The notes under the pieces were generated by a model. The model worked only from the letters and a program-made list of their open reading frames with translations, had not been told where the DNA came from and did no database searches. Shown piece by piece: positions 677 to 55,078 of a DNA stretch of 64,000 bases. The number at the start of each line of letters is the position of its first letter. The stretch's first letter is position 1. Made by a program: the position numbers and the translations under genes. Source of the DNA: Sanguinoderma infundibulare (taxonomy: Eukaryota; Basidiomycota; Agaricomycetes; Polyporales; Polyporaceae); NCBI GenBank assembly GCA_032821775.1, contig JAVLRN010000006.1, positions 3,348,001-3,412,000 of the forward strand. The letters run 5' to 3'.

Positions 677-821
677 GGCTCATCGCTGAGCAGGGTTGTC
701 GCAACTGCATCCAACATAGCGAATATCTCCAGCTACTCCCACACGACTCATTGACTACGTGCGTCTTCAATTTTGTTTGAATCGTGACTCTATTCCTGAC
801 ATCGAAGAAGTTCCCTAGACA

Positions 822-2018
822 ATGGCGACCAAGACTCAGCCACGCATCGCGATCATTGGCGGTGGCCCAGGCGGCCTCATCCTTCTCCTCACCCTCCACA
901 AGCGAGGCATCCCCGCGACCCTCTACGAGCGCGAGGCCAGCTTCTCCTCGCGCGCCCACCTCGGCGGTAGCCTCGACCTCGGGTACGAGAGCGGGCAACG
1001 GGCCCTCCGCGAGAACGGCCTCGAGGACGCCTTCAACCAGTACGCCCGCCCCCAGGGCGAGAGCCTCACGTTCTGCGACTCTCAGAAGGTTCTTTTCTCT
1101 AGGCCCGCGGACCCGAACCAGGACCCACTCGACTCCCGTCCAGAGATCGACCGCTCCGCACTGCGCAAGATCATGCTCGACGCTATTCCCGCCGACGCAA
1201 TCAAGTGGGGCTACGGCCTCGTCTCCGCCGTCCCACTGGGCAACGGCCAGCACGAGCTTACGTTTGCCAACGGACACAAGACCGTGTGCGACATCCTCGT
1301 CGGGGCCGATGGCGCGAACTCGCGGGTGCGCCCCCTCGTCTCGAGCGCGGTGCCCGTCTACCACGGGGTCACGGGGGCTGAAATCTCCATCGCGCCCGAG
1401 ATTGCGACGCTTCCCGCGCTCAAGGGTGTGGTCGAGCTTGTGGGCGAGGGGATGTTCTTTGCCTGCGAGCACTCGCGCGTGTTTGGCGCGCAGCCCAACG
1501 GAGACGGGCGCATCCGCGTGTACGCGTGGTTCCGCGCGCCGGCGGACTGGGTCCTGCCCACGGAGCCCTCAGCGACCCGCAAATTTCTCCTGGAGAAGTA
1601 CGAGGGCTGGGCGCCCTGGGTGCGAACGCTCATCGAGCATTGTGACCCCGAGGCGATCTACCAGCGCTCTCTGTACATGCTCCCGCTGGACCACAGGTGG
1701 GACCATGCGCCGGGGGTGACTCTGCTTGGGGATGCTGCGCACCTCATGTCCCCGTTTGCGGGCGCGGGCGCGAACCTGGCGATGCTCGATGCGCTCGAAC
1801 TGGGGCTGGTTCTCGCGGAGGTGATTTTGGGAGGGAAGAGCGTTGAGGAGCGGGAGGCAGCCATCGCTGCATGGGAGGAGGTGCGGATGAGCGAAGGGAG
1901 GCGGGTTGGGGCGATCGCTGCGGCCAATGTGGAGGCCGCGCTGGGGCCTGATGCGACGCCTCAGTCTTGCCTTGCGACGGCGGCGATTATGCAACCAGCG
2001 ATGAGGCGCAAGGCTTGA
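822..2018 (+). CDS. FAD-dependent class A monooxygenase, TetX-like (copy 1)
   Basis: A single-exon gene of 398 codons. It carries the N-terminal Rossmann fingerprint IIGGGPGGL (about residues 10-18), an ADGANSRVR segment (the DG motif) near residue 165, and the second FAD motif LLGDAAHLMSPFAGAGAN near residue 300. This is the class A (UbiH/PHBH-like, FAD_binding_3) fold. The GGSLDLGYESG stretch after the dinucleotide site resembles the TetX subfamily, which hydroxylates small aromatic or polyketide-like substrates with NADPH and O2. The substrate is unknown. Length fits the family, and no transmembrane helix or signal peptide is visible, so a soluble cytosolic enzyme is expected. The ATG at 822 begins just before the conserved fingerprint. 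An almost identical inverted copy lies at 40252-41481 and two C-terminal relics at 33.5 and 54.4 kb. It is followed by a DUF6533 gene on the same strand, an order also kept in the inverted copy. Confidence 0.88.
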   Translation: MATKTQPRIAIIGGGPGGLILLLTLHKRGIPATLYEREASFSSRAHLGGSLDLGYESGQRALRENGLEDAFNQYARPQGESLTFCDSQKVLFSRPADPNQDPLDSRPEIDRSALRKIMLDAIPADAIKWGYGLVSAVPLGNGQHELTFANGHKTVCDILVGADGANSRVRPLVSSAVPVYHGVTGAEISIAPEIATLPALKGVVELVGEGMFFACEHSRVFGAQPNGDGRIRVYAWFRAPADWVLPTEPSATRKFLLEKYEGWAPWVRTLIEHCDPEAIYQRSLYMLPLDHRWDHAPGVTLLGDAAHLMSPFAGAGANLAMLDALELGLVLAEVILGGKSVEEREAAIAAWEEVRMSEGRRVGAIAAANVEAALGPDATPQSCLATAAIMQPAMRRKA

Positions 2019-40251: not shown

Positions 40252-41481
40252 TCAAGCCTTGCGCCTCATCGCTCGTTGCATGGTCGCCGCTGTCGCAAGG
40301 CAAGACTGAAGCGTCGCACCAGGCCCCAGCGCGGCCTCCACATTGGCCGCAGCGATCGCCCCAACCCGCCTTCCCTCGCTCATCCGTACCTCCTCCCATG
40401 CAGCGATGGCCGCCTCCCGCTCCTCGACGCTCTTCCCGCCCGAAATCACCTCCACGAGCACCAGTCCGAGCTCGAGCGCATCGAGCATCGCCAGGTTCGC
40501 GCCCGCGCCAGCGAATGGCGACATGAGGTGCGCAGCGTCCCCAAGCAGAGTCACCCCCGGCGCATGGTCCCACCTGTGGTCCAGCGGGAGCATGTACAGA
40601 GAACGCTGGTGAATCGCCTGGGGGTCACAATGCTCGATGAGCGTTCGCACCCAGGGCGCCCAGCCCTCGTACTTCTCCAGGAGAAATTTGCGGGTCGCTG
40701 AGGGCTCCGTGGGCAGGACCCAGTCCGCCGGCGCGCGGAACCACGCGTACACGCGGATGCGCCCGTCTCCGTTGGGCTGCGCGCCAAACACGCGCGAGTG
40801 CTCGCAGGCAAAGAACATCCCCTCGCCCACAAGCTCGACCACATCCTTGAGCGCGGGAAGCGTCGCAACCTCGGGCGCGATGGAGATTTCAGCCCCCGTG
40901 ACGCCGTGGTAGACGGGCACCGCGCTCGAGACGAGGGGGCGCACCCGCGAGTTCGCGCCATCGGCCCCGACGAGGATGTCGCAGACAGTCTTGTGTCCGT
41001 TCGCACACGTGAGCTCGTGCTGGCCGTCGCCCAGTGGGACGGCGGAGACGAGGCCGTAGCCCCACTTGATTGCGTCGGCGGGGATAGCGTCGAGCATGAT
41101 CTTGCGCAGCGCGGAACGGTCGATCTCTGGACGGGAGTCGAGTGGATCCTGGTTCGGGTCCGCGGGCTTAGAGAAAAGAACCTTCTGAGAGTCGCAGAAC
41201 GTGAGGCTCTCGCCCTGGGGGCGGGCGTACTGGTTGAAGGCGTCCTCGAGGCCGTTCTCGCGGAGGGCACGTTGGCCGCTCTCGTACCCGAGATCGAGGC
41301 TACCGCCGAGGTGTGCGCGCGAGGAGAAGCTGGCCTCGCGCTCGTAGAGAGTTGCGGGAATGCCTCGTTTGTGGAGGGTGAGGAGGAGGATGAGCCCGCC
41401 TGGGCCGCCGCCAATGATCGCGATGCGTGGCTCAGTCTTGACTCTGGTTCTCTCCGGGGTTTGTGATGGTGTATTGCCCAC
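40252..41481 (-). CDS. FAD-dependent class A monooxygenase, TetX-like (copy 2)
   Basis: A single-exon frame of 409 codons, intact from MGNTPSQTPERTRV to MRRKA-stop. From residue 14 on it is a close copy of the enzyme at 822-2018: same fingerprint IIGGGPGGL, same GDAAHLMSPFAGAGAN, with scattered replacements such as LTCANGHKT for LTFANGHKT. The first 13 residues are different because the duplication border lies there, so this N-terminus was captured from the new surroundings. The start codon is only 80 bases from the divergent tRNA-Gln, so the gene must use a new promoter. No stop or frameshift is present. Either it is expressed, or it is too young to have decayed. Confidence 0.82.
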   Translation of the reverse strand: MGNTPSQTPERTRVKTEPRIAIIGGGPGGLILLLTLHKRGIPATLYEREASFSSRAHLGGSLDLGYESGQRALRENGLEDAFNQYARPQGESLTFCDSQKVLFSKPADPNQDPLDSRPEIDRSALRKIMLDAIPADAIKWGYGLVSAVPLGDGQHELTCANGHKTVCDILVGADGANSRVRPLVSSAVPVYHGVTGAEISIAPEVATLPALKDVVELVGEGMFFACEHSRVFGAQPNGDGRIRVYAWFRAPADWVLPTEPSATRKFLLEKYEGWAPWVRTLIEHCDPQAIHQRSLYMLPLDHRWDHAPGVTLLGDAAHLMSPFAGAGANLAMLDALELGLVLVEVISGGKSVEEREAAIAAWEEVRMSEGRRVGAIAAANVEAALGPGATLQSCLATAATMQRAMRRKA

Positions 41482-41561
41482 CTTCGACCACCAACATACG
41501 GTATGGATGGGAGGGGGAAAGAGTTCCGGTACATAATTGTCGCGGTTCTCCCGAAAATCTG

Positions 41562-41660
41562 GCGCTATAGTGTAGTGGTCATCACTTGGGATTCTGATTT
41601 GTGGTGGAGTGTCGCAAAGCTGATCTTCCCAAAACCCAGGTTCGAGTCCTGGTAGCGCCT
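41562..41660 (+). tRNA. tRNA-Gln (anticodon CUG) with intron
   Basis: The acceptor stem GGCGCTA (41562-41568) pairs perfectly with TAGCGCC (41653-41659). The T-arm CCAGG-TTCGAGT-CCTGG and the D-arm are canonical. The anticodon stem is TGGGA/TCCCA, with anticodon CTG at 41594-41596 and an intron of about 28 bases (41598-41625) after position 37. Discriminator base T at 41660. Confidence 0.92.
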
Positions 41661-42338
41661 CTGGGCTTGTGTGAATCCGGCTCTTTTGCTCTTTAGCTTT
41701 ATGGCTGACTTTTCCATGTCATACAATTGTCATTGTGGACGGCCCGACACGGATCTCAGCCCTACTCTCTGCCGCCCATGATAGGGTTTAGATTTATTTC
41801 TTCTTTGCATGTACTCGGGCGATTCCCATTTGGCAACACACCGCATTGACGACGTGCTTCTCACGGCCCCAAGGATCTATTGGAGATTGTATTACATCAG
41901 CGAGCTCGTCTTGTGCTCGCGCCCAGGTCTCTCCCGCCTTGTCCATCTTGTACTGTACATTATGACTTAGGTCTTGTTTGTTCATGTATTTAGTACCGCC
42001 CGTGACACGTCGTCCCTCACGCGTTTTCATCAGCGTTCAAACGTGACTGCATTCTCCTCCTCGCTTCCCTCTCGCGTGCCCCGTTTTTTACCACAGGATC
42101 GGCATCCTGGTGTGAGGTGCCCGCATCGCCTCTTTGCCATTGTTACTCCTTACCTCCAAACATCCCTCTCTGACAAGACACGTAGTCGTTACTGCTGCCC
42201 CCCTCTTGATTCAAGATTGGGTCCTTTGGTGAGCGGCGTCATCGTGCAGGACATGGATGCGCCTAAAACATTCACGTCCATTCTCAACTGTGACGCAGTG
42301 CTCCTTGACCATCTATGTGGCTCCTCAGCACAGACTGA
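41661..42338. other. Spacer between tRNA-Gln and HET gene
   Basis: A minus-strand open frame (41794-42030) has a protein-like C-terminal segment (ETWARAQDELADVIQSPIDP and GREKHVVNAVCCQMGIARVH) but no recognised family and no upstream exons. It may be a relic. The plus strand near 42240-42340 probably holds the first exon of the HET gene, which I cannot define. Confidence 0.4.
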
Positions 42339-42659
42339 GCTGAACTCCATTTCTTCAATGACCTATGTCAGGTACAACGTGATGGGGGTTACGCCATCCT
42401 CTCTCATGTCTGGGATGCCACCGAATGGTCCTTTCAAGAAATGCAAAACCTCGCCAAGAGATGCGAGGCAGACGGCACGATCCCGCGCGATCGGACCTCG
42501 GCCAAAATCTGTGAGTCCTGCATCATCGCCGAGCGCCACGGTTACAAGTGGATCTGGAATGACACCTGCTGCATCGACAAGAGTAGCAGCTCAGAGCTCT
42601 CGGAGGCGATCAACTCCATGTACCGATATTATTCCTGCGCTGCCGTCTGCTATGCCTAT
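42339..42659 (+). pseudogene. HET-domain gene, 5' part (interrupted)
   Basis: The open frame shows the HET-domain signature: YAILSHVWDATEWSFQEMQ (from about 42390), YKWIWNDTCCIDKSSSSELSEAINSMY and AVCYAY. HET proteins act in fungal self/non-self recognition that leads to cell death on fusion of unlike hyphae. The frame is cut after AVCYAY by a large insertion (42660-52576); the rest of the domain resumes at 52577. An in-frame stop at 42336 shows that the true N-terminus lies in an upstream exon. With the insertion present the product would be truncated in the middle of the domain. Confidence 0.85.
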
Positions 42660-43033
42660 CATCAGCAAAAGTGCAAAACACTCGGATAAAATTGGCTCAA
42701 TTGGGTCTGCGACCCAAAATTGGCATGATTGGTGCCAATCGGCTTCAATTGGGCTTGAGCCCGTTTGAAGCCAATTGAAGCCAATTGGCATGATTTGAGA
42801 GCAGTCCCCAGGGCACAGCTTGTCCCATTTTCCTGCAATATCCTTCAACTATATCCATTACCTTATACCTGTGCAAAGTTTCAATGCCCATAACATTGAG
42901 CGAGCCCCTACCAGCTCAAAGGCAATTATGTGCACTTACGGCCCACTTTGGGCGTTTAGCAATCAGATTCGATTGGGGTGCATTGGGCTCAAACAGGCTC
43001 AAGCGCACTTGAGTGGGATTAGATTAAACTCAG
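42660..43033. mobile_element. TIR element (MITE-like), left part
   Basis: It starts with CATCAGCAAAAGTGC, whose inverted copy ends the element at 52576. It is rich in CAATTG and CTTGAG motifs that recur inverted in the right part. No coding capacity. Together with 52472-52576 it forms an element of about 480 bases, split by a LINE. It is flanked by AT on both sides, and removal leaves the HET frame continuous (GCC TAT then CTG GCA). Confidence 0.75.
43022..43033. repeat. Target-site duplication of the LINE, left copy
   Basis: GATTAAACTCAG here is repeated at 52460-52471, directly after the (TC)n tail of the LINE. A 12-base direct repeat on both sides is the expected footprint of target-primed reverse transcription. 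Confidence 0.85.
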
Positions 43034-43095
43034 GGGACACATCTTGACCTCTTACCACCACCTACCTACTCGAGTGGCTCACGTCCTCATCACAC

Positions 43096-43858
43096 ATGGC
43101 TGGTCGGAAGACTACTCGAGCTGGGCCCGCCAGTCAGCCAGCCCAGCATGTGACCTCTTCCACCACACCGACGCAACCGACGGATCCGCCATCACCGTCG
43201 GCACCACAGCCGACGAAGAAGACCACCGCTGATCTGTTCCCCTCGGCCCCTGCCCATGCCACAGCCACCGAGCTTCTGACATTCATCCGTGAAATCATCG
43301 AGTCCTGGGACACATCAACTCTAGCACTCAAGTGCAAGACACCTCTAGTCGAAAACCTCCGGCAAGTGGAGGCCCTCATCATGCAGGAGAGGATGGAGCG
43401 CAGTGGCGCAGATAACAAAGGCAATGAGGGTGGCGCAAGTGCCCTCGTCCCAGCAGCATGCCTTTCTTCTTCTTTGTCCCCCTTTGCTGATAGCCTTGCC
43501 CCCTTTGAAGCAGCGCTTGCCTCTGCAGCCGAACGCACGATGCGGTGCGTCACGGACGAAGTGTCCGCCGCAGTCAAGGCCACACTGGGCGAGCAACTTG
43601 CGAAGACCACCACCGCACCCCCTCCCTCCCTTCCCCTTCTCCCCTCACCTCCCCACGCGCCCGCTCCGTCAGGTCCTATGGAGCTGGATGTAATCATCTC
43701 CCTCCTGCACTCCACGCGCGGCGCACTGCCCAGGAAGATCCCCGACCACCAGCTGAAGTCCATGGTGGAGACCGCACTTAGCAGCTTGGGGGTCTCCGGC
43801 TTGGAGAGCACATCAGTGCGCGGTGAGCAGCTTCAGTCACTCGGAAGCATCCCACACG
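43096..43858 (+). pseudogene. LINE ORF1 (gag-like), 5' part
   Basis: It starts MAGRKTTRAGPAS and has a Pro/Ser/Thr-rich N-terminus followed by helical sequence (ELLTFIREIIESWDTSTLAL, DHQLKSMVETALSSLGVSG). The frame breaks where the foldback element begins. ORF1 proteins of this LINE type bind the element RNA. The remainder is at 46237-47014. Confidence 0.75.
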
Positions 43859-43898
43859 GTGCTCATCCAACCGTGGGATGCATCCGTAGCGTTACAGA

Positions 43899-44923
43899 TG
43901 CATCCGTGCACATTACGGATGCATTCTGTGATAGCCGCCCATCCAACAGCCAAATGTCTGAACAAAAGCACTCACCGGGATTTGAACCGCCGACCTCCAG
44001 CAACCCAGTAAGCACATGAGCCAATTTGACCACTGAACTAACATGCCTTTTCCACTTATTTTAAGTAATCAATCTATATAGTGAAAGTCAGCCACCCAAC
44101 CCTTCGGCCATGTTCCTTTCCAATAGGGAAGGTCCCTATTAAGCATATGTTCTTGGAGCTGTTCTGAGGTCAATACTAATCCGATTTTGTTCGTTTTAGG
44201 CTTGTTTTGTTCGTGCTTTTAAGGTAGTTTCAACGCGTCCAACAGTATATTATTAGGTGAGCTATTGACTGCTCTATCAGGCATACAATGGTCGCCTCAA
44301 GCAGATAAAGAATGATGTATATCTCTATCGATTCTCCACGTATCTATTCGTGCAATGGCTCGTTGGAACCGAGTTACGAACGCGGTTCCAACGAGCCCTT
44401 GAACGTATGAATCCGTCCATCCGTTGCTGAGATATGCTGACCCTCTCCTCCTGCCAGGAGGACAGGTTGCCATATCTCAGGATTGAGACCTCTGATTTGC
44501 GTCAGTTTTGTTGCTAACAATATCTACATGTCACCAGTGCATGGGAACCTCTATTTTCCGCCGCTGCATTCCCTGTATACATTTCAGAAAGGTGAGTCCT
44601 GTCCCCCGGCGCTTACCCCATTTTCACCAAGATATCTCTGTCCCACATTGCGTCCCCTCAGATTTCTATGCCTCATCGGAAAGCTGCGATTCAGGGCTTT
44701 CCAACGAGCCCCATATCGCCTATGTACAATAGCTATAACAGCCGAAATTCATGTTCCTTTCTCCTCCCCCCTGTGTGCTTAAAGTTTTGCATACAAGTCG
44801 CCCAAATGCCCGCAAATCGTCATGTATTATACCTCGTTTGAATCAGACAATATATGGCTTTCAAACAAGCCCAAAAAGACCAAAATCCACCTGGAACTCC
44901 CAAAGATGCAGATTTCAGAACCC
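43899..44923. repeat. Left arm of giant palindrome
   Basis: Near-perfect reverse complement of 44982-46006; identical conceptual peptides of 99, 79 and 74 residues appear on opposite strands of the two arms, which shows the conservation. It includes a smaller hairpin GGCTCGTTGGAACCG / CGGTTCCAACGAGCC near 44358-44396. Confidence 0.9.
43968..44046 (-). other. tRNA-like sequence in left arm
   Basis: The minus strand reads with an A-box (TTAGTTCAGTGGTC), a B-box (GGTTCAAATCCC) at tRNA spacing and a following TTTT run. The acceptor and T stems pair only partly, so it is not a credible functional tRNA. It looks like a SINE head or a decayed tRNA gene. The identical copy on the right arm is at 45859-45937. 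Confidence 0.6.
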
Positions 44924-44981
44924 AGATGGCGACTGTCCATGTAACATTGCACTGCATGATGGCTGCCTTAGGCTAGCTCCC

Positions 44982-46006
44982 GGGTTCTGAAATCTGCATC
45001 TTTGGGAGTTCCAGGTGGATTTTGGTCTTTTTGGGCTTGTTTGAAAGCCATATATTGTCTGATTCAAACGAGGTATAATACATGACGATTTGCGGGCATT
45101 TGGGCGACTTGTATGCAAAACTTTAAGCACACAGGGGGGAGGAGAAAGGAACATGAATTTCGGCTGTTATAGCTATTGTACATAGGCGATATGGGGCTCG
45201 TTGGAAAGCCCTGAATCGCAGCTTTCCGATGAGGCATAGAAATCTGAGGGGACGCAATGTGGGACAGAGATATCTTGGTGAAAATGGGGTAAGCGCCGGG
45301 GGACAGGACTCACCTTTCTGAAATGTATACAGGGAATGCAGCGGCGGAAAATAGAGGTTCCCATGCACTGGTGACATGTAGATATTGTTAGCAACAAAAC
45401 TGACGCAAATCAGAGGTCTCAATCCTGAGATATGGCAACCTGTCCTCCTGGCAGGAGGAGAGGGTCAGCATATCTCAGCAACGGATGGACGGATTCATAC
45501 GTTCAAGGGCTCGTTGGAACCGCGTTCGTAACTCGGTTCCAACGAGCCATTGCACGAATAGATACGTGGAGAATCGATAGAGATATACATCATTCTTTAT
45601 CTGCTTGAGGCGACCATTGTATGCCTGATAGAGCAGTCAATAGCTCACCTAATAATATACTGTTGGACGCGTTGAAACTACCTTAAAAGCACGAACAAAA
45701 CAAGCCTAAAACGAACAAAATCGGATTAGTATTGACCTCAGAACAGCTCCAAGAACATATGCTTAATAGGGACCTTCCCTATTGGAAAGGAACATGGCCG
45801 AAGGGTTGGGTGGCTGACTTTCACTATATAGATTGATTACTTAAAATAAGTGGAAAAGGCATGTTAGTTCAGTGGTCAAATTGGCTCATGTGCTTACTGG
45901 GTTGCTGGAGGTCGGCGGTTCAAATCCCGGTGAGTGCTTTTGTTCAGACATTTGGCTGTTGGATGGGCGGCTATCACAGAATGCATCCGTAATGTGCATG
46001 GATGCA
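44982..46006. repeat. Right arm of giant palindrome
   Basis: The mirror copy of 43899-44923. It appears virtually unchanged, so the two arms are either very young or kept alike by gene conversion. Confidence 0.9.
45859..45937 (+). other. tRNA-like sequence in right arm
   Basis: Mirror copy of 43968-44046, in plus orientation: both pol III boxes and the TTTT terminator are present. The two tRNA-like units point away from the centre of the palindrome. Confidence 0.6.
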
Positions 46007-46078
46007 TTGGGCGAACTGACTCTGCTCTCCTGACGGTGGTTCTCACATCCGATGGTCACGCCACCCTGTGTGCAAGTC

Positions 46079-46222
46079 AGGATGCATCCATTATACACGA
46101 TAATTCGAGTATAATGGATGCATCTGTTATACATGATCATTTGAGCAGAATGGATGCATCCATTCTGCACGGTAAGTCGTGTAAAATGGATGCATCTATC
46201 ATCCGTAGTACGGATGCATCCC
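46079..46222. repeat. GGATGCATCC subterminal repeats
   Basis: At least five GGATGCATCC or GGATGCATCT palindromes lie 24-40 bases apart. Each pair encloses a short AT-rich imperfect hairpin (for example TTATACACGATAATTCGAGTA). Similar units flank the left arm at 43878-43925. Such arrays are typical transposase-binding ends of foldback elements. Confidence 0.7.
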
Positions 46223-46236
46223 TAGGTTGGATGAGT

Positions 46237-47014
46237 ACCACTAGCGATGTATCCATATGACTGAATACCTACGCGCGGTGTCCACCACCGAGCAAACAGC
46301 GACCTCGTCGTTCACGCACATGACCTAGCACAGGCACAGCTCCTCCTTCGCGAGGCAGACAAGTGGGTTGCACACATCGAGGAAGGTGCAGCCATCGAGA
46401 AAAAGTTGTACATGTTAACCCTCTCGCCTGTACCTACGGCTTTCGACCCCATGGCCCCCGGGGCCTGTCACGCGATCTTCAAATCGAACTCTGGTCTTAT
46501 CCCCTCACCTGAAGCGATCCTCAACGTCCGCTGGCTCCACAACCGGCAGCCAGCCATGGGGAGCAAGTCAGCGTCCTTGCTAGTGCTCGGCGTGTCAGAC
46601 CAGCGCCTTGCCGACCGCCTCATATGGGAGTCCATTTCAATCTGCGGGGTTCTCTGTAAGGCAGTGAAATATGTCCCCCTGGTGACCCAATGTTACCATT
46701 GCCAAGCCTTTGGCCACGTCTCGAAGGCGTGCCCATGCCTATCCGACACGACTGCCCTCAAGTGCGCATGGTGCGCAGGCAATCACGCTGTGCGGGATTG
46801 CCTATGCCCTGCACATATGAAATGCAACAACCCCCACTTCTGCACACACATCCCTGCACGGTGCGCGAATTGTGGCAGGGCGCATAAGGCCGTATCCAAT
46901 GCCTGCCCGGTCAAAATGGCGGCTCAGTCTGCCCTGGCAGTGCGCTGGGATACCGGCAGCCCTTATTACGACAAGATGTTCCGTCCCCCGGCCTGGGCTG
47001 GGGCTGCCGCCTAA
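46237..47014 (+). pseudogene. LINE ORF1 (gag-like), 3' part with zinc knuckles
   Basis: Continues ORF1 after the foldback element (HHRANSDLVVHAHDLAQAQ, LLLREADKWVAHIEEG). Then come three zinc knuckles: CYHCQAFGHVSKAC (CX2CX4HX4C), CAWCAGNHAVRDC and CANCGRAHKAVSNAC. The stop at 47012 is followed at once by the ATG of ORF2 (TAAATG), suggesting coupled translation. Knuckles are intact. Confidence 0.8.
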
Positions 47015-50000
47015 ATGCGCCCGCAACAAGTGGAGTTACAAGTCAAGAGCCTGAACTGCTGCAAGCAACCTGATGTCCTCAAATCACTCCTGAACACGGC
47101 AGATCCTTCTGTCTGGGATGTGCTTTGCATTCAAGAAACCCCCGCCAATATATCCACCCTTCCCTCCTTCTGATCGCCACGGTGGAATATGATCCTCCCT
47201 CCACCGGGCGCCAACGACCCTCAGCAGTCTCCAGCACACAGCGCAATCTTTATCAGTAACGATCTGTGTTCTGACTCATACCTCCAAGTCACCCTTAAGT
47301 CCAGCAACATAGTCGCGGTCAAGTTTTCTTTTCCAGACATTTCTTTCTTTCTCTTTTCTGTATACAATCCTCCGAATGCTGATTCTTCCATTCCCTTCAT
47401 TAGAGACACCCTTAGGCAGGACCCGGCGCTCCCCTGCATCTTAGTAGGCGATTTCAACATGCACCACCCTCTCTGATCGGGGCACCAAACCCCACATCAC
47501 ACGACGCACTCGGATGCGGATGCTCTGCTCTATGTCCTCGCCAACTACGACCTCACTCTCGTGCTTCCCCCTGGATCCCTGACCTGCTTTTCTGACACCC
47601 ACAAAATGTGGTCGACCATCGACCTGGTCTTCATCTCCACAGACATGGCAGACTCTGTCCTCGAGTGCAGAACGGAGTTTGGGCATGGCTCAGACCACCG
47701 CGCAATTGACACCCACCTTTGCCTCGACGCCCCACGATCGAAACCGGAACCACGCCCACAGTGGCACAAGACCGACTGGGTGACTTTTCTTCCCATGGTG
47801 GCCCAGGAGTGGGAACAGCGGGATCTGGAGGGCCAAGCCGAGTGAGTGGAGACCCCTTGCTCGCTCGACTCACTTGTCCATGACATCACTAACGTCTTCC
47901 AGGCTGCCGCAGGTGAAGTGGTCCCGCAGTCGAGCTTCATGCAGTTCTCCAAGCGCTGGTGGAACAAAGACCTTGGCCAGATGCATTGTGAGGCCAAACG
48001 TCTGCAAAATCGGGCTGGCAAGCATCGCACGATGGACCAGGAATGCGAGGCAGCGAGGGCGGCCACCCAGGACTATCAACGAGAGATCTGTGCCCAACAG
48101 CAGCGCTCGTGGTGGACGTTCCTCAATGATGCCACGGAGAAGTCAATCTGGCAGGCCAGCCGTTACGTTACGCAGGCCCCGGAGGACATCGCAGCATCGC
48201 AACTCCCAGCCCTTGACCTTCCGGACAGCAGCAAGGCCCGATCGTGCCTGGAGAAGTGTGACGCCCTCATGGCGCAGTTCTTCCCTGTCCCACCCCCCGC
48301 TTCTCTTGATGATATCACTAACTACAATTATTCCCCGCAGCTCAAACACACCCCCTTCAGCGAGGAGGACGTGCGCGCTGCCATCAGCCGCCTCAGTGCA
48401 TTCAAGGCACCCAGACTGTCCGGTATCGTCAACGCCGCGCTGAAAGAATCTATCAACACCATCGCCCCTACATACGCTGCAATCACGAACACCTGCGTCG
48501 ACCTCCACCATCACCCGGCCGAGTGGAAGACCTTCAAGACCATCACACTGCGGAAACCCGGCAAGCCCAGCTACTTGATTCCAAAAGCGTACTGTTCCAT
48601 CGCACTCGAAGACACCTCCAGCAAGGTCATCGAGTCGGTCATAGCAAGCCGGCTGGCAGTGATCGCAGAGAGCCAAGGGCTGTTGCCACCCACCCACTTT
48701 GGTGGCCGCCCCGGCCGCACCACAACTGATGCAGTACAATTTCTCACACAGCGAGTCAAGGACGTGTGGTGCAAGGGCCACGTCGCAACGGTTGTCCTTC
48801 TCGACATCACCTCCGTGTTCCCATCTGTCAACCACGACCGGCTCCTCCACAACCTTCGCAAGCGCGGCGTCCCAGAAGATCTTGTCCTCTGGGTCAAAGA
48901 TTTCCTCATGGATCGACACACTGAGCTCAACTTTGATGACTACACCTCTGAATCCCTCTGCGCAAGCACTGGTTTACCTCAGGGCTCCCCTCTCTCCCCT
49001 ATCCTCTATTTATTTTACTCAGCTGACCTTTTAGACCTTATAGACATCAAAGACCGCACTCACGTGGCTGCAGGTTTTATTGATGATACCTCCCTCCTAG
49101 TAACCTCCACCTCTTTTGCTAACAACATTGCTATGCTTACAGTGCTCGTCCCCGACCTTCTCGGGTGGTCCCACCACCATGCATGCCGCTTCGACATCCC
49201 CAAGTTCAAGATGTTACACTGCACCTGGAACGAGAAGCGGTACGAACCGCTCCCCCTCACTTTCGGTAACTACACGATCCAGCCTTCGGATTCCGCCAAG
49301 TACCTCGGGTTCATCGTTGACTGCCGCCTCCGCTGGCACGAACATGCCAACTATGCGATTGCCAAGGGCACCGCCACTGCCCTCGCAGTGGCCTGCCTCT
49401 CTAAGCCTTCCTACAGCCTCCCCCACAAGCATATCCGCACCCTGGTCCAGTTGGTCGTTTTCCTGCGGCTGGAATACAGACTTTCGGTATGGTACACCCC
49501 CGTCATCAAGCTTCCGGGAGCGATGCGGCGCAAGGGCTCCGTCGGGCTGGCTCGCCGCCTCGGCACTGTCCAGCACCTCACCGTGCGCATCATTTGCAGT
49601 GCCTTCAAAACCACAAGCTCCGATTTCCTCGACTATCACACACACCTCCCACCCATCGATTTGCGCCTCAACCACACAGTGTTCAATAACGCAGCACACC
49701 TTGCCACCCTCCCACCATCCCACCCTCTCCACTCCATGGTCAAGCACTGCATGCGAAACTACCCCTGTCTACACTGCTCCCTGCTGCATGAACTCTTCCG
49801 CTCCTTTCCAGAGCTCCGGAATGTCGAAACCATTGACCCAGCCCTGGGCAGGGGGGTGGAAAGTGCGCTCACGTTCACAGTAGCTGGCGACAAGGAGCAG
49901 GTGGCCCGGGACGTTCAGGCGGCAGTGAGTGCCAAGTGACTACATGTTTTTACTGATGGCGTCCTCTCTGAAGATGGATCAGGCGCGGCCGCGTCTGCGG

Positions 50001-50845
50001 CAGGTCGGAATCAGTGCCACGTCTGGCATGCACATCTCGGTGCCTCAACCGAACGCACCCTCCTCGACACCAAGGTCGCAGGTCTGGCCCTCGCTCTCGT
50101 CGTTGTGGAGGTGGAACCCCGAGCCATGAGAATCAACGTCTACAGCAACAGCAAGAGCGCGATAGTCGCCATCTGGGAGCGATGCCCCCAGCCCGGCCAG
50201 CAACTGGTGGAGATCTTCCACCGGCAGCTCTCCCGCCTGAAGGGCAAATGCCGCTCACTCGAGGTCAACTTAATATGGGCCCCAGGACACAGCGGTGGCG
50301 ATAGTGCGCTCGCGGCCAGCATCCATGTGCAGACAGCAGCGGCCGGCAGTTCGACGGCCCTCCTGCGCCCCATCCAGGGGCTCCTCGACCTCCCAAGGAA
50401 CGTCGACGCACTCAAGCGGGATGCCGCCGCACGGTTCCTAGAGGAATGGAAGGCGCGTTGGATTGTCTCACCTCAAGGCAGCCGGTTCATTCGCCACATC
50501 GACTCAACCCCTCCAGGCGAGCAAGTCCTCTGGTGGTTCAAGAAGCTCTCTCGTTGGCAGGCGAGCATCATCACCCAGCTCCGAAGCGGCCATATCGGCC
50601 TCAATAAGTACCTCCATCACATTAAGGCCGTTTCCTCCCCCCTCTGCACCGCTTGCGGCGAGCCCGAGACAGTAGAACATTTCCTCTTCTCGTGCCGACA
50701 CTTCCGGATGGAACACGATGCATTACAGCGGGTGGTTGGCAGCCCCCTCTCGTCCCGCACGGTACTCAGAGACATCAAACACCGCACTGCGCTTATCAAC
50801 TACGTCGAGGCGACCGGTCGCTTCGAGCACTACGCGGAACATTGA
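47015..50845 (+). pseudogene. LINE ORF2: endonuclease, reverse transcriptase, RNase H
   Basis: One frame of about 1277 codons. Endonuclease: LNCCKQPDVLK, CIQETPA, VYNPPNADSS, LVGDFNMHHP and DLVFISTD. Reverse transcriptase: RPGRTTTDAVQFL, motif A LLDITSVFPSVNH, motif B GLPQGSPLSPILYLFY, motif C with GFIDD in place of the usual YADD. RNase H: VFTDGVLSEDGSG, YSNSKSAI (usual DS changed to NS) and APGHSGG. A CCHC-like CTACGEPETVEHFLFSC follows. The frame is broken only by four TGA codons, at 47171, 47474, 47843 and 49937; no indel was seen. It is therefore a recently dead copy. Confidence 0.9.
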
Positions 50846-51301
50846 CATCAAGTGCAACCAGCTGAGTCTTTTCCTTACTACTCCCTCCCAGTTTTCCCCT
50901 TTTCCTTCCCTCGCGTTCACCCCCTTTTCACTACCTCATTTCCTTTTCTCTCATTTCGCCTCGTTTCGTCTCTCTCTCTCTCTGCTCCTAGACTATATTA
51001 CCATTTCGGGACTGATTTGTCTCGTTAGGCCTCCTACGTGGGCACGCCACCCTTTATCCACTAGAAGACACCCGCCCTCAAGACCCACCAACCCTCACTG
51101 TGTTCAACCACAGTTTCCGGACCCGGAGTATCTACGCGCTAGAGCATCATTTCCCTCCCTTTTCTTCTGTCTTACCCCCCTGGGCATTTGTGGGTGCCGG
51201 CCCAACCCGGTACCCCGAAGGGTAGTTTAGGCGGCCACCGGGGCAACTGGTGGTCCGCATTCCTGGACCGCCCATGGGCGGACGTAGTCACCTACGGAGC
51301 C

Positions 51302-51361
51302 GTCTACACAGGCTTTTGCAAGTGCGCGGTTTATTATACCGACCGCACTTGCAAGTGCGCG
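51302..51361. repeat. 60-bp inverted repeat, left copy
   Basis: From GTCTACAC to GTGCGCG; nearly exact reverse complement of 52175-52234. Each copy contains the inner palindrome CGCACTTGCAAGTGCG. The pair encloses about 0.8 kb in the 3' region of the LINE. Confidence 0.85.
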
Positions 51362-51470
51362 GGAAGATCCGGAGGGGGCTGGGCGGTGATGGCGCGCGGG
51401 GTAGACAGGGGCAACCGTCGCGCGATTGTCGGAGGTGCGCGATTGTCGGGTCGGGAAAGAAAAGACAATG

Positions 51471-51545
51471 GCAAAATCAGGGTTCGAACCCCTAGCAACA
51501 CGAACCATCTTGTTTTGAACAGTACTCCAATCCACTAGTCTATAT
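51471..51545 (-). other. tRNA-like sequence
   Basis: The minus strand shows a B-box (GGGGTTCGAACCCT, perfect stem) and an A-box-like stretch (ACTAGTGGATTGGAGTACTG) upstream. It lacks a good acceptor stem. Probably a SINE head or tRNA relic. Confidence 0.45.
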
Positions 51546-51959
51546 ACTCCTTAGGAGTAATACTATCATTTGCCCTATGTAGTGCGACGACCCAGCATGA
51601 ATCTCCGCCCAATGCCCAGATGGCGGCGCCCTGATGCAATTGCACACTCTGGAAAGTGTTGAATGAATTCTTTGTGCGTATGTTCTCTATCAGATACCTT
51701 CCAGGGCTGAGCACTGCCGTGGACTTGCAAATATTGGGGTCATCTGCAAGTACGACCCCACTGGGACTTCACGCACTTCTGGGACACTCCCGGAGGACGC
51801 TTGCATCAGGGGCGAGACGCTTGGCATCAGGGTGAGGCGCCTCCATCAGATGGGCTGTCACTTGAATCAGGCGGCGCAGTCACTTGCATCAGCGCGGGCG
51901 CGAGCATCGGGGCTGTAAGTATGTGTTATATACATTGTCCTCCCCAACAGGTATAAGGA

Positions 51960-52032
51960 GCTGGTGGTGTAGTGGTAAAATGGGTTGTTAGTGAAGTGTT
52001 TGGTGGTCGTTGGTTTGAGTCTTGATGGTAGC
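51960..52032 (+). other. Degenerate 73-nt tRNA-like sequence
   Basis: Exactly 73 bases from GCTGGTGGTGTAGTGG to GATGGTAGC, with an A-box (TGTAGTGGTAAAATGGG), B-box (GGTTTGAGTCT) and a following run of ten T. Several places where a tRNA has C carry T (TTTGAGT for TTCGAGT), and the acceptor and T stems pair poorly. It could be a mutated tRNA gene or the head of a SINE. Confidence 0.5.
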
Positions 52033-52174
52033 ATTTTTTTTTTGAATATTAATCAATTACCATTGTATCCGAAAAGATGTACAAGATGCGCTTATAGCAG
52101 GGCTATAAATACAAACTAGAGGAGGGGCCGGAGGAGAGGGGATAGGAGGAGGGAGTGGACCGGGACCGGCGGGC

Positions 52175-52234
52175 CGCGCACTTGCAAGTGCGGTCGGTAT
52201 AATAAACCGCGCACTTGCAAAAGCGTGTGTAGAC
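52175..52234. repeat. 60-bp inverted repeat, right copy
   Basis: Partner of 51302-51361. The pair may be the ends of a separate small element in the LINE 3' region; no coding sequence lies between. Confidence 0.85.
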
Positions 52235-52459
52235 TCTACACCTACGACGACCGGCGGCCAGGTTATGCCCTGCGCACCTTCCTTGGATGGACAAGGGGAG
52301 ATCTCTCTCTTTTACTATACTCTATGATATCATACCATACACACGCACTTTTCACCCACACGCAAGCGTAGACACTTTGTATCCCTCCGGAGAGTAGCCA
52401 CATAGGCCGTAAACGGCCTGAGCGCTACTATAAAAATGGAATTCTCTCTCTCTCTCTCT

Positions 52460-52471
52460 GATTAAACTCAG
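52460..52471. repeat. Target-site duplication of the LINE, right copy
   Basis: GATTAAACTCAG, identical to 43022-43033, placed directly after the TC tail. Confidence 0.85.
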
Positions 52472-52576
52472 CGGGCCTGGCCTGAGAAATCGGCCCAATC
52501 GGTGCAATTGGCGCCAATTGGTCCAATCCCACTCAAGCCCGCTTGAGCCCGCTTGAAATGCACTTTTGCTGATGAT
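52472..52576. mobile_element. TIR element (MITE-like), right part
   Basis: Ends GCACTTTTGCTGATG, the inverted copy of the left end at 42660. It has the same CAATTGGC and CCCACTCAAG motifs as the left part. HET coding resumes immediately after it. Confidence 0.75.
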
Positions 52577-54188
52577 CTGGCAGACGTGCCCGCCGGCAGC
52601 CATGACGAACTGGGCAAGAACCGCTCGGAGTTCCACAACAGCAAATGGCATCGGCGGGGTTGGACCCTGCAGGAGCTCATAGCCCCGGAGTTCCTCATTT
52701 TCCTGTCGAAGGAATGGGAGCAGCTCAGCGCGAAGGCGGACCTGGCAGATATATTGGAAGAGATCACCAGGGTACTGGCTCCCGTTCTCCGGATGGAGAT
52801 CCCCGTATCTAACGTCAGCGTTGCCTGTCGCTTCTCCTGGGCCGTGGGCCGCGAGACGACGCTGGTGGAAGACGAGGCGTACTGCTTGATGGGCATCTTC
52901 CACATCCACATGCCATTGATTTACGGCGAGCGCGAGAATGCGTTCCAGCGACTGCAGAAGAAGATCATGGAATCCTCGACCGACACCTCACTTTTCGCGT
53001 GGGAGGGTGGTGGTGGTGGTGGTGGTCGCGGCGGCGGCGCGAGGCCTCTATTCGACACTTCCGATCATCGTTCCCCCACAGATTGCATACAACTACATGA
53101 CACACCGTCAGCTTGCCTGTTCGCCCGCTCCCCAGCAGATTTCGATGGGTGCTCTGGAGTCGCATTTGACTCTTCCATGATGGCTCCAAAGAATGGGAAG
53201 ACCATCAAGGTGCATTGTTTCTGCGTGGTGGATGTTGAACATCTGCTTATTCTGATTTGATTAGTACACATCCTCACATCGAGGTGGCCGCAGCGCCCTC
53301 CCAAAGCGGGCATCTCGAGCTTCTCCACCTCCAACTATCCTGGCCTTTTCAGTCACGGCCTTCGGATGCCGAACGAAAATGCAAGTCGTCGAGTTGGATC
53401 GCATAACCATCGGAGTGTTACGCTGTTATCTCGACGAGGACGGAGCGCAGGACGCCTGGCATACTCTGGCATTACTCTTGACACCTTGTCTCTACGCCGA
53501 CGATCCAAAACGTCCGACCTACCACGTCGGAGCGTGGGATCCTACATGCAGCAGTCTCCGACGCACCATGCTAGTCGAGGTTTGAGGATCCACCATCATA
53601 CTCGGCGATCGAAAGGTTGTGCCTCGGCGGAAAACGATATTCATCACGCATTGTCCGCCACCTGGTTTGGCGAACCCGGTCCGCTTCCACATCCCCTCGA
53701 ATAACGCCATGTCCCCCCCATTCCGCATTCCTCTGGAGACCATACAGCACGAGCTCGAGGACTGGAGGCTGGAACAGTTGACTCCAACCGAGTCCAGCTG
53801 GACCGGAGAGCCTCCGATGATGCTCGTCTTCCAGTACTCTGGCAAGGGCACTGAATTCCTCCTCAAGAAACCTTGGCTCACAGTCGTCCTCGGACTGTGC
53901 TCCGAGGCCGCTGATGCCGGGTCGGGCTCATCGTCTCCTGGTTCGCATTGGGCGGAGATCCTGATTTTCAATGCGGACAAGATGATCTCAGGAGCTCTGC
54001 CTCACACCATCTCCCACAAGGGCAACCACTTCCGCTCGTGGCCTGATCAGCGGCGGACGCGTACATATGAAAGCCATAGCCCAGGGCTGTTCCCTGCAGA
54101 ACAGGCTGATTTCATGGTTAGCGTGACCATGTCCTTCACGCCGTGCCCTAAGAGTCCGGGAAGTACCCTCGTCCTGCACCTGAAGTGA
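52577..54188 (+). pseudogene. HET-domain gene, 3' part (interrupted)
   Basis: Begins LADVPAGSHDE and continues with the second half of the HET domain: WHRRGWTLQELIAPEFLIFLS, then FSWAVGRETTLVEDEAYCLMGIF and MPLIYGERENAFQRLQ. A glycine run from a GGT repeat (53000-53040) follows. An intron at about 53211-53263 leads to a C-terminal region (VVELDRITIGVLRCYLDED, LLTPCLYADDPKRPTYHVGA) up to the stop at 54188. An in-frame TGA (53583-53585) lies within otherwise open coding sequence, so decay has continued after the insertion. The 5' half is at 42339-42659. Confidence 0.82.
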
Positions 54189-54357
54189 TGCAAGTCGGGT
54201 TTCCTCTTTATGTGTGCAAGTATTCATGAGATGTCGATGCCATCCCCAGATCGCCGGCGACCGCTGGTTATACCGCGCGAGCATGAAAGCTGGAACCCTC
54301 GTCCGGTCCGAATAGAGCGCGGCAGAAGAGGAAGAACCATAGCTCGCCAGACTGCCG

Positions 54358-54618
54358 GCGAACCTGGCGATGCTTGACGCTCTGGAGTTGGGGCTGGTAC
54401 TCGTGGAGGTGATTTCGGGCGGCAAGAGCGTTGAGGAGCGGGAGGCGGCCATCGCTGCATGGGAGGAGGTACGGACTCGGATGAGCGAAGGGAGGCGGGT
54501 TGGGGCGATCGCTGCGGCCAATGTGGAAGCATCATTGGGGCCTCAAGCTGGCGCCAGCCTTGAGTCTGCGCTTGAGACGGCAGCGACCATGTCACCGGCG
54601 ATGAGGCGCAAGGCTTGA
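54358..54618 (+). pseudogene. C-terminal fragment of FAD monooxygenase (copy 4)
   Basis: About 85 codons from NLAMLDALELGLVL to MRRKA-stop, shorter than copy 3 because even the GD motif is gone. The left edge (about 54355) is a junction with unrelated sequence 170 bases after the HET gene stop. Not functional. Confidence 0.87.
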
Positions 54619-55078
54619 ATGGAGTGCTTCGTTTATCATTCTCGTCGGTATCTCATGGATGAATCCCTCCGCGGAAGCGGCAGTAGGTTGCCGATGAAGT
54701 ACATTTTCTCCTGGCCATGTATTTGCATATGTCTAATGACCGTAGAGTCCGACCACGATGACTGTATGAAGCCTTACCCTCTTGACTGAGAGACTTTCAG
54801 GGGTCCGAGTGTCGCGTGCCCACTGTCTATCGTGCATGACTTCAACGGACGACCGTGCGAGAGGAGTTGCGTACACGTTGACCCTACCTGTTAAGCAATG
54901 TCGAACCGCCAGCTGAGGGATCGCATGTGGGATTCGGAGCCGCGATACCAGTCAATTTGTCAAATAGCGACGACACCCGCACATCTTGAAACAAGACAAA
55001 TATTCTATGACGATACGTAAAACAACGATGCAGCAAGCCGGCGACGAAACGCGTAGCATCAAGTCCACCCTACTGAGT
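54619..55078. other. Duplicated non-coding spacer
   Basis: Counterpart of 33800-34297 with small indels; no gene seen. Confidence 0.7.

Follow-up and report, generated by a model that had tools for sequence, protein, structure and literature searches.

Four nested transposable elements in a damaged HET-domain gene of the polypore-like fungus Sanguinoderma infundibulare

A HET-domain gene of Sanguinoderma infundibulare is split by four mobile elements, and their nesting order, a Plavaka-like element followed by a non-LTR retrotransposon (LINE) and then by a foldback and a MITE-like element, is certain, because a guest cannot be older than the copy of the host that it interrupts. In the full account, which we consider very probable, the HET gene was hit by a PlavakaB-type element, then by the LINE and then by the foldback and the MITE, in a gene copy that carries a stop at codon 8. 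For each of the four insertions the same genome contains gap-free empty sites: L040 for the HET gene, L002 and L003 for the LINE, L010 for the foldback and L097-L101 for the MITE. The original prediction had ordered three transpositions; the guest-in-host order of the TIR element, the LINE and the foldback stands, each with uninterrupted relatives, and the fourth insertion, at 51297-52239, had been missed. The window is the whole 64,000-bp stretch of DNA that was analyzed, C6:3348001-3412000 (G000), from a genome of 48.9 Mb in 87 contigs; positions given without a contig are window positions. The features are as follows.

42315-42659, plus strand: 5' part of the HET gene, codons 1-115 (MWLLSTD*AEL...AVCYAY), from the ATG at 42315; PF06985 match and paralogue alignment
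42658-42659 (left) and 52575-52576 (right), no strand: target duplication of the outer element, 2 bp (AT); L040 lacks the insert and has AT once
42660-52574, plus strand: outer TIR element, PlavakaB-like, with the TIR CATCAGCAAAAGTGCA at both ends
43022-43033 (left) and 52460-52471 (right), no strand: 12-bp duplication GATTAAACTCAG of the LINE; single copy in L002 and L003
43034-52459, plus strand: non-LTR retrotransposon (LINE) measuring about 6.0 kb once its guests are subtracted, with RVT_1 and a (CT)n run at its end
43818-43824 (left) and 46273-46279 (right), no strand: 7-bp duplication GCGCGGT of the foldback; empty site in L010
43825-46272, no strand: foldback of 2448 bp with inverted arms of about 1026 bp (43898-44923 and 44982-46007); defined by the arms and 15 other copies fetched
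51290-51296 (left) and 52240-52246 (right), no strand: 7-bp duplication ACCTACG of the fourth element; empty site in related LINEs
51297-52239, no strand: fourth insertion, a 943-bp MITE-like element in the LINE 3' region; at least 22 matches and exact ends
52577-53260, plus strand: 3' part of the HET gene (LADVPAG... to the TGA at 53258-53260), adjoining or colinear with the 5' part in paralogues

The identity of the interrupted gene rests on a profile search with the translation of 42345-42662, which matched PF06985 (HET) with E 6.7e-9 over profile positions 1-84; the part 3' of the insert gave a HET profile match below threshold (E 0.072, positions 126-146). The frame is cut after AVCYAY at 42659, as had been proposed. 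Once the insert is removed, an open frame runs from 42339 to the stop at 53258-53260, and the continuity originally claimed holds from that point onward; just upstream, the gene starting at the ATG at 42315 carries a nonsense TGA at codon 8 (42336-42338). The joined gene has 342 codons before its stop, one of them this TGA. The stretch originally marked out runs to 54188, beyond the HET frame, which ends at 53260; it takes in a different frame, 53586-54188, for which Pfam gave no match at E 0.01. An intron after 53209, which would make the HET protein longer, was considered and dropped, the 342-codon gene being the version that appears to fit 23 of the 29 paralogues described below.

The HET query gave at least 150 matches in the genome (the best 150 of 165 candidates, with some genes occupying two rows). 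Thirty loci were compared, one being the window itself, which leaves 29 fetched paralogues. All 29 align across the full 115 codons from the ATG at 42315, 28 of them starting with ATG and L064 with GTG. Relatives in which the two halves of the interrupted gene adjoin were looked for and are present: the 3' half follows the 5' half without an intervening base in 25 of the 29, and the remaining four (L041, L042, L054 and L067) are colinear, with starts at residues 22, 7, 2 and 19. Codon 8 is CGC in 16 paralogues, CGT in eight, and CGA, AGG, CAA, CAC and ACC in one each (CGN in 25/29); it is a stop in none of the 29. The 342 codons of the window gene compare with 305-355 in 23 paralogues, the other six having their first stop at codon 38, 141, 225, 239, 414 or 433, and the one that stops at 38 carries two TAG codons. 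Like other basidiomycete HET-domain genes, the window gene has the HET domain, the MWLLSTxRAEL start and a length of 342 codons, but it differs by its nonsense codon 8 and by the 9.9-kb insertion. The nearest named relatives of both the HET protein and the LINE reverse transcriptase are from polypores (Trametes, Ganoderma, Meripilus and Dichomitus), followed by other fungi, a ranking that covers named entries only, many equal or better matches bearing no name.

The closest paralogue, L040 on contig C20, has the HET halves joined and is 92% identical in DNA. It is treated as a paralogue and not as an allele because, compared with window positions 41001-55000, its 5' flank has no match upstream of 41789. 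The two copies differ at 164 of 2059 aligned bases. In 133 of these differences the change is C>T or G>A, with L040 carrying the T or A, and 107 of the 164 affect CpG sites that survive in the window copy alone. The pattern indicates CpG decay, of the kind that methylation causes, on the C20 side, where the HET frame also has a stop after codon 239. A 217-bp repeat in the HET 5' region of the window (41878-42094), flanked by copies of AGGATC at 41872 and 42095, is absent from L040 and has 34 genome matches, itself counted; it is either an additional small insertion or a deletion in the paralogue. Also in this neighborhood, a tRNA-Gln(CTG) gene with a 28-base intron lies at 41561-41661 (it was missed with the bacterial setting), and two frames, 819-2018 (plus strand) and 40252-41718 (minus strand), look similar by eye and run in opposite directions. 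We take both frames to be FAD-monooxygenase-like. A fragment at about 54380-54617 (plus strand), 3' of the HET gene, resembles by eye, unaligned, the 3' end of the same monooxygenase-like gene.

Because of the TGA at codon 8, the window gene is broken apart from the insertion, and this copy is most likely a pseudogene that has lost its function, although the TGA could be younger than the insertion. The original prediction had called the gene a self-recognition gene and the site an allorecognition locus. The window copy does have the HET domain that such het genes carry, and two sources describe HET as a cell-death domain in several ascomycete incompatibility genes (PMC10197012, PMC4986451); on that footing the gene might have been active in allorecognition until the outer element inserted and switched the incompatibility type. 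We judge such a history very improbable. The copy lacks the intact coding frame of an allorecognition gene, it has at least 150 HET-like counterparts (the best 150 of 165 candidates), and few HET genes act in allorecognition according to a review, which gives only 5 of 125 in Podospora (PMC10197012). The allorecognition label is accordingly not supported, and a damaged member of a large HET family remains the preferred description of the gene.

The outermost insertion had been predicted as a TIR element of about 480 bases bounded at 42659 and 52577. The left cut at 42659 is retained, and the element is corrected to 42660-52574 with a 2-bp duplication: CATCAGCAAAAGTGCA starts at 42660 and its reverse complement ends at 52574. 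Its own sequence, made up of 42660-43033 (including one copy of the LINE duplication) and 52472-52574, comes to 477 bp, which is exactly the spacing of the ends of a copy at C7:2202172-2202648. Over its first 371 bases it shares 96% identity with a copy on C7 and 95% with one on C6. Ends of the CATCAGCAAAAGTGCA type occur 41 times exactly in the genome, vs none for the control pattern, and elements of 1.2-3.2 kb with the same ends also exist. A 2-bp duplication was read by eye in 10 of the 11 Plavaka-like elements with both ends seen (AT, GC, AC, AC, TC, GG, CG, CA, TC and AT, the window first), the exception being L002; this count leaves out L003, which is truncated on the left, and L006, L007 and L008, whose ends have no partner.

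A 2025 paper describes PlavakaB elements as having CATCA..TGATG ends and 2- or 3-bp duplications (PMC12730594), and the outer element has both the ends and, with the empty site in L040 as reference, the duplication. The Plavaka profile PF18759 gave 40 match rows in the genome, often several exons per copy. By coordinates, four of the 40 (C3:3769702, C10:2309228, C3:463753 and C4:1978028) lie 3.0-4.5 kb inside ends of the outer element's TIR family, all in the same relative direction, and over its first 62-69 bases the element in the HET gene is 80-83% identical to these four ends. We call the outer element PlavakaB-like and non-autonomous because its ends and duplications match PlavakaB and because these four Plavaka domains lie inside ends of the same family. 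It resembles PlavakaB (CMCT group; PMC12730594) in its termini, in its 2-bp duplications and in having Plavaka domains within same-family ends, but differs in that the copy in the HET gene, with only 477 bp of its own and no known transposase frame, is taken as a non-autonomous derivative. Two other elements, L084 (C7:2471574-2474364) and L086 (C13:511626-514417), are each 2.79 kb long, with the same CATCAGC ends, and contain a Sec61-alpha-like fragment, matched in L084 by Plug_translocon (E 7.6e-15; SecY below cut-off) and recognized in L086 by translation only; they are a possible case of gene capture by a Plavaka-type element.

Within the outer element, the LINE is flanked by the predicted 12-base target duplication, GATTAAACTCAG, at 43022-43033 and 52460-52471. 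Two other copies of the outer element, L002 and L003, contain one GATTAAACTCAG and no LINE, and so represent empty sites. RVT_1 matched the LINE with E 7.8e-22, and named polypore proteins are up to 68% identical to its reverse transcriptase (Trametes cinnabarina, over 64% of the query); matches to RNase H and zinc-knuckle profiles were below the curated cut-offs. The element has the reverse transcriptase and the target duplication, variable in size and here 12 bp, of a LINE, and it is presumably Tad-like. It is like fungal non-LTR retrotransposons with reverse transcriptase and RNase H in its RT domain, its polypore RT relatives and its target duplication, with RNase H and zinc knuckle sub-cut-off; it differs from them in being interrupted by two elements. 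Genome searches covered its first 824 bases and its 3' end. Relatives of the first part are 77-84% identical (33 bases belonging to the foldback set aside), pieces of related 3' ends are 78-95% identical, and no close copy was found with these two queries.

The foldback in the first part of the LINE has the predicted size of 2.4 kb, with ends at 43825 and 46272 that lie 33 and 35 bases outside the 43858 and 46237 first proposed. These ends are set by 15 other copies, whose alignments start no more than 6 bases from 43825 and stop no more than 5 bases from 46272; further, diverged copies are present among the best 40 of 48 candidates scored. Seven-bp duplications, counted by eye, flank all 16 copies read, the window included (15 exact, L069 with one mismatch; the right end of L073 is shifted by one base), and in the LINE relative L010 nothing interrupts the site, where the two sides overlap by 7 bases. 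The arms of the window copy differ at 1 of 1026 positions, compared with 7 of 1026 for the nearest other copy. In 13 of 16 copies the left arm resembles its own partner more than it resembles the left arm of any other copy (the exceptions are L073, L080 and L081), which fits gene conversion between arms. No long coding frame or transposase was seen in the element. In the copy L082, the loop contains a further palindrome of about 1.65 kb, another nested case; this extra center was considered as a coding version and rejected, its longest frame having 86 codons and the center being palindromic. Outward-facing tRNA-like modules, seen by eye in the foldback arms and the MITE, are left as unproven. 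Within the window, exact matches to the A- and B-box consensus are confined to the two foldback arms and to 41568-41648, inside a real tRNA gene; default ARAGORN found no tRNA in the arms or the MITE, relaxed ARAGORN found one per arm and one elsewhere in 12.5 kb (mean of 2.05 in 40 shuffles), and Rfam gave no tRNA match at these stretches.

The fourth element has imperfect TIRs (GAGCCGTCTACACAGGC.. and ..GCGTGTGTAGACTCTAC). At least 22 matches of 88-100% identity extend over most of it, the window included (40 of 98 candidates scored), and its exact ends occur 39 times in the genome, vs none for the control pattern. Exact 7-bp duplications flank 8 of the 10 copies examined, again including the window; of the other two, L032 gives no information, being embedded in a run of C, and L036 is without its left end. 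The insertion site is uninterrupted in all five related LINE 3' ends fetched (L097-L101), and a sixth, C9:1990487, matched on the right side only. By coordinates, a copy at C11:331881-340806 has its left end split from the remainder by about 8 kb, another nested case.

Insertion by hAT elements makes 8-bp duplications, or 7 bp in hAT7. An apparent 8-bp overlap had suggested that the MITE is a hAT element, a suspicion dropped when ten copies were compared: the final C of the overlap is part of the element itself, which leaves a duplication of 7 bp. The foldback and the MITE share this duplication size and the outermost bases GAG..CTAC, which suggests, from sequence features, one superfamily. 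By coordinates, none of the genome matches to KDZ (87) or the hAT dimer (8) lies inside foldback or MITE elements located by their end patterns. Galileo, too, makes 7-bp duplications. The window foldback has the long inverted arms and 7-bp duplication typical of Galileo and the P superfamily and functions like a foldback, which makes it no more than a candidate member; it differs from Galileo in having no long coding frame or transposase seen, in its GAG..CTAC ends and in its fungal host. Kyakuja and hAT7 of fungi likewise have 7-bp duplications, according to PMC12730594, but the CA..TG termini of Kyakuja are not those of the foldback or the MITE. A doubtful proposal is that the foldback and the MITE would form one undescribed fungal DNA transposon lineage, marked by GAG..CTAC ends and 7-bp duplications, whose long inverted arms arose and were kept alike through gene conversion.

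Assembly is difficult across inverted arms of about 1 kb, and the loop of the foldback could be misassembled. An assembly artefact or chance repeats as the source of the whole structure is nevertheless extremely unlikely, given four families with near-constant duplication sizes, gap-free empty sites, which speak against an artefact at the boundaries, and a contig (C6) of 3.46 Mb. The place of the insertions is a separate matter, for nesting places the host before its guest in time but says nothing about the site at which the guest was acquired. A composite, of the Plavaka-like element and the LINE or of the LINE and the foldback or MITE, might have been built elsewhere and moved into the HET gene as a unit, so that the local order would not equal the nesting order, and the same-end elements of 1.2-3.2 kb leave the outer family not limited to 477 bp. 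We nonetheless consider this origin improbable: neither of the two further long copies of the outer element contains the LINE, the candidates scored (19 of 19 and 40 of 98) included no second LINE copy joined to the foldback or the MITE, and 9.9 kb far exceeds the length of the ten remaining paired elements in this family, three more facing-end pairs 21-28 kb apart being probably unrelated ends. The simplest reading of this one genome is that each insertion likely happened at this HET site. Identity to the nearest copy, 96% for the outer element, 99.2% for the foldback and 99.4% for the MITE, agrees with the nesting order, although these values are not clocks.

On this successive-insertion reading, the non-autonomous PlavakaB-type transposon of 477 bp would have hit the HET gene and produced the 2-bp duplication, a Plavaka transposase probably acting on it in trans. 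The LINE would then have entered the 477-bp element, presumably by target-primed reverse transcription, leaving the 12-bp duplication, and later the 2.4-kb foldback and the 0.94-kb MITE would have inserted separately into the LINE, with 7-bp duplications each. Among the titles listed on nested elements with HET genes, Plavaka ends, 7-bp foldbacks and Polyporales HET genes, we recognized none as describing this locus. As a stack of elements the insertion is nothing unusual, and the gene that holds it is a single damaged copy from a very large family. It nevertheless provides a clean example of nested transposition, in which one genome contains the empty sites of all four insertions, and it gives exact ends, with the sizes of the duplications, for four mobile elements of one polypore-like fungus. 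With its nonsense codon, its insert and a family of at least 150 matches, the gene also cautions against treating every HET gene as a self-recognition gene.
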